This document shows, one piece after another, positions 5,694 through 45,318 of a DNA stretch of 64,000 nt (positions are counted from its first letter, which is position 1; each line of letters starts with the position of its first letter). The notes below the pieces were generated by a model, which was not told where the DNA came from, searched no databases, and saw nothing but the letters and a program-made list of their open reading frames with translations. The stretch is taken from the NCBI GenBank assembly GCA_902774335.1, contig CACYHW010000007.1:17012-81011 (forward strand). Reading direction: 5' to 3'. The DNA comes from an uncultured Bacteroidales bacterium (lineage in GTDB: Bacteria > Bacteroidota > Bacteroidia > Bacteroidales > Bacteroidaceae). The position numbers and the translations under genes were made by a program.

Positions 5694-5807
5694 ATGGAGA
5701 ACAAGGTTACTTATAATTGTCTGTCCAATCAGATGAATGATAAGCAGAACCCCAATAATCAGGTTCTGAATAATACCGTTTGTTCTACCAGCCGGACAGA
5801 TTGTTAG
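5694..5807 (+). CDS. Asn/Gln-rich leader peptide upstream of pyrG
   Basis: 37 codons from an ATG placed just after the predicted transcription start. Nine Asn and three Gln codons are concentrated in residues 8-27, including QNPNNQVLNN. The DNA word AATAATCAGGTT also occurs in the glnB and asnB leaders. Codons 32-34 contain ACCAGCC (5787-5793), a perfect 7-nt complement of the 5' arm of the following terminator (GGCTGGT, 5834-5840). The stop codon lies 12 nt after that segment, so a ribosome finishing the ORF would cover it. I infer a ribosome-mediated attenuator sensing charging of tRNA-Asn/Gln. No function of the peptide itself is implied. Confidence 0.72.
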   Translation: MENKVTYNCLSNQMNDKQNPNNQVLNNTVCSTSRTDC

Positions 5808-5830
5808 TTTAAAGATATTGATTTGATTAT

Positions 5831-5864
5831 AAAGGCTGGTTTTTTTTAAGACCGGCCTTTTTTT
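5831..5864 (+). terminator. Attenuator terminator before pyrG
   Basis: AAAGGCTGGT (5831-5840) pairs with ACCGGCCTTT (5851-5860), with one U-G pair, followed by a T tract to 5864. It ends only 16 nt before the pyrG ATG and after the leader ORF stop, so it terminates before pyrG rather than after a gene. The 5' arm can alternatively pair with 5787-5793 in the leader ORF. Confidence 0.85.
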
Positions 5865-5880
5865 GTTGTAAACGATTCAT

Positions 5881-7485
5881 ATGGAAACAAAATTTGTATT
5901 CATTACCGGTGGAGTGGTTTCGTCACTCGGCAAGGGCATCATCGCAGCGTCACTGGCCAAGCTGCTGCAGGCCAGAGGTCTCAGGGTTACAATCCAGAAG
6001 TTCGACCCCTACATCAATATAGACCCCGGAACGCTCAATCCCTACGAGCACGGAGAGTGCTATGTTACCGACGACGGCGCCGAGACCGACCTTGACCTGG
6101 GACACTACGAGCGTTTTCTGGGTGTCCACACATCCAAGGCCAACAATGTAACCACCGGAAAGATATACAATACCGTGATAACCAAGGAGCGTGAGGGAGC
6201 CTATCTGGGCAAGACCGTCCAGATAGTACCTCACATTACCGACGAGATCAAGCGCCGCATGCTTTTGCTGGGCCAGACAGGCCAGTTCGATGTGGTGCTT
6301 ACCGAGATAGGAGGTACCGTAGGCGATATGGAGTCGCTGCCCTTCATCGAGGCCGTCCGCCAGCTTCAGTGGGAGCTGCCCGAGGGCTCATGCATGTCCA
6401 TCCATCTTACTCTCGTACCTTACCTGAGCGCCGCCAAGGAGCTCAAGACCAAGCCTACGCAGCACTCCGTCCAGATGCTTCAGCAGGCCGGCGTCCAGCC
6501 CGACGTCATCATCTGCCGCACCGAGCACCCGCTCTCCGACGACCTTCGCCGCAAGGTAGCCCTGTTCTGCAACGTCAAGCCCGGTCACGTGATCCAGAGC
6601 ATCGACGCCTGGAGCATCTATCAGGTACCCCTCAACATGCATCAGGAGCACCTGGACGAGCTGGTGGTACGCAAGCTCGGCATCGAGAACTTCAACCAGC
6701 CCGACCTCAAGCTGCTGGAGGAGTTCCTGGACCGCCTCAAGCACCCCAAGGCCGAGGTGGACATCGCTCTGGTGGGCAAGTACGTATCGCTCCAGGACGC
6801 CTACAAATCCATCCTCGAGGCACTCGTTCACGCCGGCGCCGCCAACTCCTGCAAGGTTCACATCCACTCAGTCAACAGCGAGGAGATAACCGCCCAGAAT
6901 GTGGCCGATAAGCTGGGCGGCATGAAGGGAATCCTTGTGGCACCCGGATTCGGCTCACGCGGTCTGGAGGGAAAGATTGAGGCCGTCCGATACGCCCGCG
7001 AGAACAAGATCCCGTTCTTTGGCATCTGCCTGGGAATGCAGATGTGCGTAGTGGAGTTCGCCCGCAACGTGCTGGGCTTCAAGGATGCCGATTCAACCGA
7101 GGTCAACGCCGATACCAAGCATCCCGTTATCGATATGATGGAGGATCAGAAAAAGACCACCATGAAGGGCGGCACAATGCGTCTGGGAGCATATGACTGC
7201 CAGATCACCAAGGATACCCTTGCATACAGGATTTACGGCAGCAAGTTCATCTCCGAGCGTCACCGTCACCGCTATGAGTTCAACGCCAGGTATGCCGACG
7301 ATTTCAGCAAGGCCGGACTTGTAACATCGGGCCACAACCCGCAGACCGGCCTCACCGAGATAGTTGAACTTCCGGCATCGGAACATCCCTTCTTTATAGG
7401 CGTACAGTTCCATCCTGAGTACAAGAGCACACCCGAGAATCCGCATCCGCTGTTCCGCAGTTTTGTCGAAGCGGCAATGAAATGA
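5881..7485 (+). CDS. pyrG: CTP synthase
   Basis: 534 residues, full length. The N-terminal synthetase domain has the P-loop-like [14 protein letters not shown] and the C-terminal class I glutamine amidotransferase has [10 protein letters not shown] with the nucleophile Cys near residue 382, plus the HPEYKS histidine/glutamate pair. It makes CTP from UTP, ATP and the amide nitrogen of glutamine. It follows an Asn/Gln-rich leader ORF and a terminator hairpin, so expression is probably set by attenuation. Gram-positive pyrG genes are also attenuated, but by CTP-sensitive reiterative transcription with a GGGC start; that start is not seen here. It appears to be a single-gene transcript, with a terminator at 7638-7696. 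Confidence 0.97.
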
Positions 7486-7558
7486 CGTACGGAGGATATA
7501 TTCGCCGGGCTGTTGATAATTTTTCAGATTGTAATTAAAAAATATTAATACATTGATA

Positions 7559-7566
7559 TAACTTTG
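7559..7566 (+). promoter_or_regulatory. Promoter -7 element upstream of the first giant LamG gene
   Basis: TAACTTTG fits TAnnTTTG; no convincing -33 TTTG lies 19-21 nt upstream, though the region is AT-rich. A transcript from here would carry a leader of about 170 nt including the hairpin at 7638-7696 before the ATG at 7743. Confidence 0.5.
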
Positions 7567-7637
7567 CATGACGTAGACTTACAATAATCCTTTTCCGGAC
7601 CAGACAGTTAAACCTATTGTATATGTGTAGTATAAAA

Positions 7638-44965: not shown

Positions 44966-45061
44966 GCCTTTTAAATATCGGTTTGCTGCAGATAACATTT
45001 TTTTAATATCATTTTGTGAAAAAATAATGGAGAATCGTTTTCAAATTGCAACATTTATTCG

Positions 45062-45069
45062 TACTTTTG
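45062..45069 (+). promoter_or_regulatory. Promoter of the glnN leader
   Basis: TACTTTTG fits TAnnTTTG. A TTTT 20 nt upstream stands in for the -33 TTTG. The start would be near 45076, about 27 nt before the leader ATG at 45103. Confidence 0.65.
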
Positions 45070-45102
45070 CATCGTTTTTGATACATAAAGACGATCGAAG
45101 AT

Positions 45103-45210
45103 ATGAAAGTGTTGATAGAATATGGTTTCAGATATGCTCTGGAGGTTGGTTTCAATCCTAAGCGTAATGTCTGCAGCTGTTTGGCTATTCTCTCTCCAGC
45201 CGGGGAGTAA
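45103..45210 (+). CDS. Leader peptide upstream of glnN, not Asn/Gln-rich
   Basis: 35 codons, the same length as the asnB leader and at the same place, but the peptide (MKVLIEYGFRYALEVGF, then NPKRNVCSCLAILSPAGE) has no N/Q run. CCAGCC in codons 32-33 (45196-45201) is a perfect 6-nt complement of GGCTGG (45248-45253) in the following hairpin. GGTTGG at 45144-45149 can pair with the same CCAGCC. The position relative to the stop codon equals that in the other leaders. I infer the same attenuator layout with different control codons, or a peptide that arrests the ribosome. Coding status is supported only by layout. Confidence 0.5.
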   Translation: MKVLIEYGFRYALEVGFNPKRNVCSCLAILSPAGE

Positions 45211-45240
45211 GTCAATCGGCAACACTTATCTTTAAACATA

Positions 45241-45279
45241 ACGAAAAGGCTGGCCCACTTGGACTGGCCTTTCGTCTTT
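45241..45279 (+). terminator. Attenuator-like hairpin before glnN
   Basis: ACGAAAAGGCTGGCCC (45241-45256) pairs imperfectly with GGACTGGCCTTTCGT (45261-45275), with a bulged A, two G-U pairs and one C-A mismatch, then CTTT. The T tract is weaker than in the other three leaders, so it may pause rather than terminate efficiently. It shares GGCTGG with the pyrG and glnB hairpins. Confidence 0.65.
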
Positions 45280-45318
45280 AATAACAAACAAGAACAAAAA
45301 CCACAAAACAATACAATT

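Follow-up and report, generated by a model that had tools for sequence, protein, structure and literature searches.

Candidate glutamine- and asparagine-responsive transcription attenuators upstream of nitrogen metabolism genes in Bacteroidales

How do Bacteroidales adjust the expression of their nitrogen genes? To our knowledge, nitrogen sensing in this order is poorly understood. The question is raised by a stretch of 64,000 nucleotides from an uncultured bacterium of the family Bacteroidaceae (assembly GCA_902774335.1, contig CACYHW010000007.1, positions 17,012 to 81,011 of the forward strand), hereafter the window. A sequence-only reading of this stretch had proposed an attenuation regulon of four transcription units, pyrG, glnK-amtB, asnB and glnN. 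Comparison with related genomes suggests that the leaders of these units very probably attenuate transcription by way of the ribosome, in response to how far tRNA-Asn and tRNA-Gln are charged, and that together they make up a regulon for nitrogen (glutamine/asparagine). The comparison concerns gene association, asparagine and glutamine (N/Q) codons, geometry, a preference for the AAT codon and complementarity; from these we infer that the leader open reading frame (ORF) is translated, that ribosomes stall and transcription terminates, and in which direction the units respond.

Leaders in the window and in related genomes

All four candidate leaders were confirmed at the places where they had been predicted. 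Their common parts are a TAnnTTTG box recognised in the sequence, an ORF of 35-40 codons, a CCAG/CCGG segment and a terminator, all on the forward (+) strand. In each of them CCAG or CCGG lies within or near the last leader codons and is complementary to the 5' arm of a GGCTGG or GACTGG terminator. As had been claimed, three peptides, those of the pyrG, amtB and asnB leaders, are N/Q-rich and share the motif NNQV(L/P).

The pyrG leader starts with the box at 5668..5675 and the ORF MENKVTYNCLSNQMNDKQNPNNQVLNNTVCSTSRTDC (37 codons, 5694..5807), and its antiterminator segment ACCAGCC (5787..5793) has the partner GGCTGGT in the intrinsic terminator at 5831..5864; the gene itself, identified by Pfam as CTP synthase, a glutamine amidotransferase, occupies 5881..7485. 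Upstream of glnK-amtB, the box (17607..17614) is followed by the ORF MFIGFKNITAVQLNNNQQQNNQNQNNNQVPMVIPFDRSGM (40 codons, 17646..17768), the antiterminator segment GACCGGTC (17751..17758), the intrinsic terminator (17792..17823), the gene glnK of the P-II protein (17882..18229, Pfam) and the ammonium transporter gene amtB (18252..19529, Pfam, start set by eye). The asnB leader consists of the box at 43028..43035, the ORF MAKGLVFVTNNNQQNNQNQNNNQVLMVAPFDQRES (35 codons, 43058..43165), the segment TTGACCAG (43146..43153) and the intrinsic terminator at 43195..43226, and precedes the gene of glutamine-hydrolysing asparagine synthetase (43271..44965, Pfam, NCBIfam). The glnN leader has the box at 45062..45069, the ORF MKVLIEYGFRYALEVGFNPKRNVCSCLAILSPAGE (35 codons, 45103..45210), the segment CCAGCC (45196..45201) and a terminator at 45245..45279; its gene encodes a type III glutamine synthetase (Pfam, NCBIfam).

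The N/Q-rich leaders are rare in the source genome. We scanned the window and 20 sampled stretches of 20 kb, 464,000 bases in all, for ATG-started ORFs of 12-65 amino acids. Eight ORFs have at least six N/Q in 12 residues, and a terminator with a downstream gene was found behind exactly three of them, the pyrG, glnK-amtB and asnB leaders, a grouping beyond what chance would give. The scan required four T in a row and thus missed the glnN leader. It also gave one locus, L148, with an ORF without N/Q but with self-complementary sequence, and an N-rich ORF in another, L153, was dismissed as a chance ORF overlapping a coding sequence. The GGCTGG terminator alone is ordinary, as many gene-end terminators of Bacteroidales are similar. 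The pattern of TCTCCAGC(C/T)GG followed by (A/G)GCTGG, searched in the window and the sampled stretches, was found in the glnN leader and in one intragenic match only.

For the search in other genomes, a covariance model, R1, was built from an alignment of 14 leaders (four from the window, ten from relatives) that begins shortly before the CCAG/CCGG segment and runs as far as the T tract. The model describes the antiterminator, spacer and terminator only; the N/Q codons and the gene were left out. With scores of at least 50 bits, R1 matched 62 places in 23 of the 37 congeneric genomes and, outside the genus, 21 places in 19 of the 329 genomes of the family, belonging to three other genera (g132, g139, g147). 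All these loci were fetched and classified, and a nitrogen gene lies downstream at all 83 places: glnK-amtB at 36, asnB at 22, glmS at 12, pyrG and glnN at five each, and the gene of an outer-membrane protein at three. A leader ORF with at least seven N/Q in 12 residues is present at 78 of them. The inner part of the match is identical to a training sequence in 19 of the 83 places and not identical in the other 64. When loci derived from amtB are pooled with these, there are 86 distinct matches of at least 50 bits, all before the same genes, 80 of them with an N/Q-rich ORF by the same measure.

Weaker matches of R1 were fetched only in part. Of the 14 distinct matches between 46 and 50 bits, 11 precede these genes or gltB, and the other three belong to other families. 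Among 117 classified matches with neither a nitrogen gene nor aroF behind them, a leader was called in 106, and none of these reaches seven N/Q in 12; thus such ORFs do not stand equally before unrelated genes. The model also recovered kinds of genes absent from its training set. One genus contributed gltB (L247-L251, 44-49 bits), two genera contributed the gene of the outer-membrane protein (L186; L238, L243, L245), and at L284 (45.7 bits, six N/Q in 12) the match lies before an ATP-grasp gene of the circularly permuted kind (Pfam). The regulon appears larger than the four units originally proposed, with glmS, gltB and the outer-membrane protein in relatives and a probable operon from glnN to purF in the window.

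Codons, geometry and RNA folding

The geometry and codon usage were considered in the N/Q leaders of matches of at least 40 bits with a recognised gene. Most have 13-31 nucleotides (nt) between the end of the last N/Q codon and the CCAG/CCGG core, 23 being the commonest value. In most, the stop codon ends at a position between -7 and +20 nt relative to the start of the core, exceptions being gltB (+38) and one asnB leader (-27). With these positions, the core would be exposed as long as a ribosome is held in the N/Q run and masked once it has reached the stop codon. Of 97 leader starts, 90 have within the preceding 90 nt a TAnnTTTG box, which we take to be the Bacteroides-type -7 box, as against 47 of 2000 random window segments, a contrast that is overstated since the latter are mostly coding.

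The asparagine codons of the leaders, which come from several genera, are AAT in 615 of 758 cases (AAC in 143); in 23 long ORFs of the window AAT accounts for 207 of 927 (AAC for 720). The three N/Q leaders of the window have 24 AAT and four AAC. Glutamine is encoded by CAG in the leaders and the long ORFs alike. In aligned leader ORFs all 469 gap runs are multiples of three, compared to 101 of 666 in the spacer and terminator, although this comparison is weakened by the fact that only complete ORFs were aligned.

In the alignment of the terminator, 98.7% of 154 cells are paired, with 20 cells changed on both sides; three of the five measures exceed all 500 shuffles, and the other two are matched by 67 and 343 of the 500. 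In the antiterminator, 83.9% of 112 cells are paired, as against 9.8-42% for slid partners. Compared with shuffles, the complementarity in the window's own leaders is reached in 5 per 1000 for asnB, 19 for amtB, 22 for pyrG and 186 for glnN. Before the 3' arm of the terminator is made, the antiterminator is part of the minimum-energy fold of the pyrG, amtB and asnB leaders, at -11 to -15 kcal/mol.

The following mechanism is consistent with these data. Transcription would begin just upstream of the leader, and the leader ORF would be translated while RNA polymerase advances. When asparagine and glutamine are plentiful, the ribosome would reach the stop codon and cover the CCAG/CCGG segment, so that the terminator forms and the operon is not transcribed. 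When tRNA-Asn or tRNA-Gln is undercharged, the ribosome would halt in the N/Q run, and the freed segment, most often 23 nt downstream of the run, could pair with the 5' arm of the terminator. Transcription would then read through into glnK-amtB, asnB, pyrG, glmS, gltB or glnN.

The same architecture was found with other codons. Seven R1 matches, all below 46 bits, precede the gene aroF of 3-deoxy-D-arabino-heptulosonate-7-phosphate (DAHP) synthase (NCBIfam PRK08673), and the leader peptides there are rich in phenylalanine, tyrosine and tryptophan (F/Y/W), for example MKATSAYFYYFWFTRQFAG. One is in the source genome (L230, G000:C15:29500-31600, match 519-613) and six more are in relatives. Runs of at least six F/Y/W in 12 residues were observed in only three of 222 other matches. 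The last codons of the aroF leaders are GCC GGG and the stop codon, and CCGGG faces CCCGG of the terminator; judged by eye, 12 nt separate the end of the aromatic run from GCCGGG, which is directly preceded by one further Phe codon. The aromatic leaders before DAHP synthase serve as an internal control and indicate that the architecture is not tied to N/Q and that the codon content goes with the pathway. At a contig edge in another family (L292, match 142-230, strand -), short ORFs rich in aromatic residues also precede a GGCTGG terminator, with no downstream gene visible.

A different type of leader precedes asnB in a second family. Among 30 asnB loci across the order, an N/Q- or N-rich ORF followed by a terminator was observed in two, in the source genome and in L098. 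L098 belongs to the second family, and the three genomes of that family that were considered, all of one genus, have an asparagine-only leader before asnB: L322 (G058), L323 (G595) and L324 (G503). These leaders have the TAnnTTTG box, the ORF MFILNNFNLLINNNPFER or MYLLNNNNLFNYNPFQW and, immediately behind its stop codon, a stretch rich in G. Their terminator has the 5' arm GGCTTTCCC, and GGGGAAG is able to pair with CTTTCCC (by eye). The RNA sequence is unlike that of the CCAG type, and the regulatory codons are those of asparagine only.

The proposed signal and rival explanations

Which amino acids would be sensed can be addressed from the tRNA-charging enzymes. Asparaginyl- and glutaminyl-tRNA synthetases (AsnRS, GlnRS) are over the cut-off in all 13 genomes considered, and no GatB is over the cut-off in any of the 13, with one part-match in a genome of another family. 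Since both synthetases are present and no GatB was found over the cut-off, tRNA-Asn and tRNA-Gln are most likely both charged directly, and on the same grounds we rejected the possibility that N and Q codons both report glutamine via GatCAB. That asparagine is made solely from glutamine was likewise rejected, because all 13 genomes that were searched in the genus have AsnA. The pooled leader codons are 758 N and 505 Q; the gltB leaders have 40 N versus nine Q, and the glnN leader of L006 has almost only Q. Given these counts, we read the signal as both amides, with asparagine, by its codons, at least as important as glutamine.

Several observations weigh against an attenuation regulon. Fourteen of the 37 congeneric genomes, many of them incomplete, contain no place of at least 50 bits. 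Matches within a genus share descent and their counts are not independent events, so that the independent facts are the kinds of genes. The covariation of the antiterminator does not exceed shuffles by any measure (254 of 500 are as high), and many leaders are individually non-significant against shuffles; the strength of the complementarity evidence is its recurrence, and for a single leader it is weak to moderate. The complete terminator wins in all four folded leaders. Hence the switch must be kinetic and decided during transcription, as it is in classical attenuators. In aligned leader ORFs there is little or no excess of changes at third codon positions, and hence no clear sign of selection on the peptide apart from the N/Q run. 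The figures for aroF in the geometry count are invalid, as a different CCAG was taken as the core. AsnA also belongs here, as asparagine does not depend on glutamine alone. Finally, the window's own glnN peptide MKVLIEYGFRYALEVGFNPKRNVCSCLAILSPAGE is not N/Q-rich, a local hairpin hides CCAGCC and leaves the antiterminator outside the minimum-energy fold, and the T tract is poor; this leader looks decayed.

A further deviating case is an asnB leader in L195 (match 3445-3532, strand -), in which the N/Q run and the ATG are in different frames. It also counts against the reading, and it is either a natural frameshift or an assembly error.

The state of the glnN leader bears on an explanation that refines the attenuation reading and is compatible with it, and which we hold slightly more probable than its opposite: in this genome Asn/Gln attenuation operates only at pyrG, amtB and asnB, and the leader of glnN is a remnant, either decayed or tuned differently. 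Besides the missing N/Q run, the hiding hairpin and the weak T tract, it is favoured by relatives, as some congeneric glnN leaders hold NNNSGNWN there and L006 has QQQEQQQSQNQQ. However, the RNA part of the window's glnN leader scores 54.5 bits, though it is in the training set, and two asparagines remain before the core.

Alternatively, the leaders could be riboswitches or protein-bound RNA switches with direct sensing of glutamine or of a regulator, and the N/Q ORF would be incidental or have another role. In favour of this, the sequence CCAGYCGGAT is conserved beyond the pairing part, even where the stop codon precedes it, and in cyanobacteria the glnA and Downstream-peptide motifs (RF01739, RF01704) precede similar genes, the glnA RNAs being found before genes of P-II, glutamine synthetase, glutamate synthase and ammonium transporters (PMC2864571). 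On the other hand, Rfam models reach the gathering score nowhere in the window, five loci searched at E up to 1 yielded nothing relevant, and little structure is conserved beyond the terminator. In addition, the codons follow the product both in the aromatic aroF leaders and in the asparagine-only asnB leaders, which have another RNA sequence. We consider direct sensing improbable. Still less credible is a role of the ORFs as genes of small, functional N/Q-rich proteins, with hairpins that are simple terminators keeping transcripts separate. The peptides are indeed alike across genes, with the NNQV and YNCLSNQMNDKQN motifs, but this likeness fits leader cassettes copied between genes, the sequence outside the N/Q codons varies between genera, and the residues in aroF leaders are aromatic. 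As to a coincidental grouping of common N/Q runs and common GGCTGG terminators, the frequency of such terminators at gene ends is the point in its favour; given the 78 N/Q-rich leaders in 83 places, as against none of 106 without nitrogen genes, and the three N/Q ORFs with terminators in 464 kb, all before nitrogen genes, its probability is close to nil.

Distribution, neighbouring genes and known systems

The claim of an attenuation regulon in Bacteroidales holds in a restricted form, for a small group of gut members of the order. The distribution of the CCAG type is patchy: it occurs in four genera of one family and in three loci (L005, L006, L025) from metagenome-assembled genomes of an unplaced genus, and the asparagine-only asnB type occurs in a second family. 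An order-wide search with R1 (393 genomes, strict filters) gave 42 places outside the source genome, none above 48.8 bits and none in its own family. In the 29 of these that were inspected, no leader has more than five N/Q in 12, and most, lying at the ends of longer open frames, were rejected as ordinary terminators; one of the other 13 is a reverse-strand twin. No leader of the CCAG type was recognised in other families among the inspected places. The same search did not recover leaders of the L098 type, which means that R1 misses diverged members. Forty-two amtB loci, preselected for lacking an N/Q leader, were re-searched with R1 and gave no match at E up to 0.05.

Some leaders of different genes are very similar. 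Between the leaders of asnB in L004 and of glnN in L252, 154 of 172 aligned bases are identical, and 175 of 188 are so between those of glnK in L237 and of the outer-membrane protein in L238; as global pairwise identities are inflated by cheap gaps, only these two highest were used. To judge from such pairs, leader cassettes have been copied between genes.

In the window, the glnN leader precedes a probable operon glnN-gltB-gltD-dapF-aminotransferase-carA-carB-glmS-purF (45319..63141, strand +), a run of nine genes of glutamine-using and linked enzymes in one direction, delimited by order and spacing and identified by Pfam, NCBIfam and a GlmS match. In this genome glmS (59888-61732) has no leader of its own and lies inside the tightly spaced run. 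No terminator was recognised between glnN and gltB by a scan that also missed the weak terminator of the glnN leader. With the operon structure taken from spacing, the four leaders may govern much of the glutamine-dependent synthesis encoded in the window.

Next to amtB there is a gene of a putative outer-membrane protein (19768..20460, strand +) without a Pfam or NCBIfam match. Similar proteins of relatives carry their own N/Q leader (L186, L238, L243, L245). The protein may be a nitrogen-responsive porin.

Between the nitrogen units there are giant ORFs at 7707-17363 (3218 amino acids), 22501-26832 (1443) and 32211-41516 (3101). By eye, a hicAB-like pair was recognised at about 27268-27869, flanked by GGGAACCGGTTCCC-like palindromes near 27050 and 27880, and an umuD/umuC-like pair at 29106-30857. 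A repeated AATTGAGAATTGAAAATTGA-like element occurs in two intergenic stretches, at about 19530-19590 and 47505-47530.

The leaders resemble the attenuators of the trp, his, leu and thr type of Proteobacteria in having a leader ORF with a codon cluster, a terminator, a competing antiterminator and a similar placement of the codons and the stop. They differ in that the codons are those of asparagine and glutamine, and in that several unlinked operons of nitrogen assimilation and glutamine use are preceded by them instead of one biosynthetic operon. Further, no 1:2 pairing was recognised, although no systematic search for it was made, and the ribosome itself seems to hide the antiterminator. T-box riboswitches specific for Gln or Asn sense tRNA charging by binding the uncharged tRNA directly; the charging of the same tRNAs would be sensed here with a leader ORF instead, and the T-box model of Rfam gave no match at the leaders. 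The RNAs RF01739 and RF01704 are glutamine riboswitches, structured RNAs that need no leader ORF; they belong to another phylum, and their models did not match the leaders either. Nor was there a match of the model of Bacteroid-trp RNA (RF01692), which is associated with trp. The ribosomal protein L20 leader (RF00558) was rejected, with a best score of 30.3 bits, about half of the gathering score of 58.7. Bacteroid-trp RNA is likewise a cis-regulatory candidate of Bacteroidetes (PMC2864571, Table 1), and the codon bias and sensitivity of ribosome-mediated attenuators are treated in PMC1183508.

In the same phylum, leader-peptide attenuation was proposed in Flavobacterium psychrophilum (PMC9723704) and suspected in Bacteroides thetaiotaomicron, where small ORFs occur in long 5' untranslated regions (PMC7366714). 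Their main texts contain no occurrence of "asparagine" or "amtB", and the passages considered name no Gln/Asn leader. We found no description of Gln/Asn attenuation in Bacteroidota in a literature search that covered few subscription papers and no preprints, which, with the absence of Rfam matches, agrees with the sequence-only reading. In Prevotella ruminicola 23 the transcripts that changed most with ammonium were those of amtB, a neighbouring presumptive membrane protein (PRU_1977), glnK, asnB, glnN-2 and gltBD, and PMC5552732 states the direction both ways, as induction under limiting and under non-limiting ammonium. This set is nearly the same as the leader-bearing set described here; the likeness is in the gene set alone.

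If the attenuators work, their leader-peptide specificity, for Gln/Asn, would be one for which no description was found. A more far-reaching view, to which we give as much belief as disbelief, is that these bacteria adjust transcription to nitrogen mainly through the charging of tRNA-Asn and tRNA-Gln; that a cassette of promoter, N/Q ORF, antiterminator and terminator was copied onto operons; that translation takes the role which two-component or P-II-linked DNA-binding regulators have elsewhere; that the AAT bias tunes the leaders to a slowly read codon; and that the asparagine-only leaders of the second family are an independent invention. In that case the targets of the cassette would be ammonium uptake, glutamine synthetase, glutamate synthase, the synthesis of asparagine, CTP and glucosamine, and an outer-membrane protein. 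Functional attenuators at these genes would constitute a translation-based nitrogen sensor acting on many operons, with a regulatory cassette copied from one operon to another.

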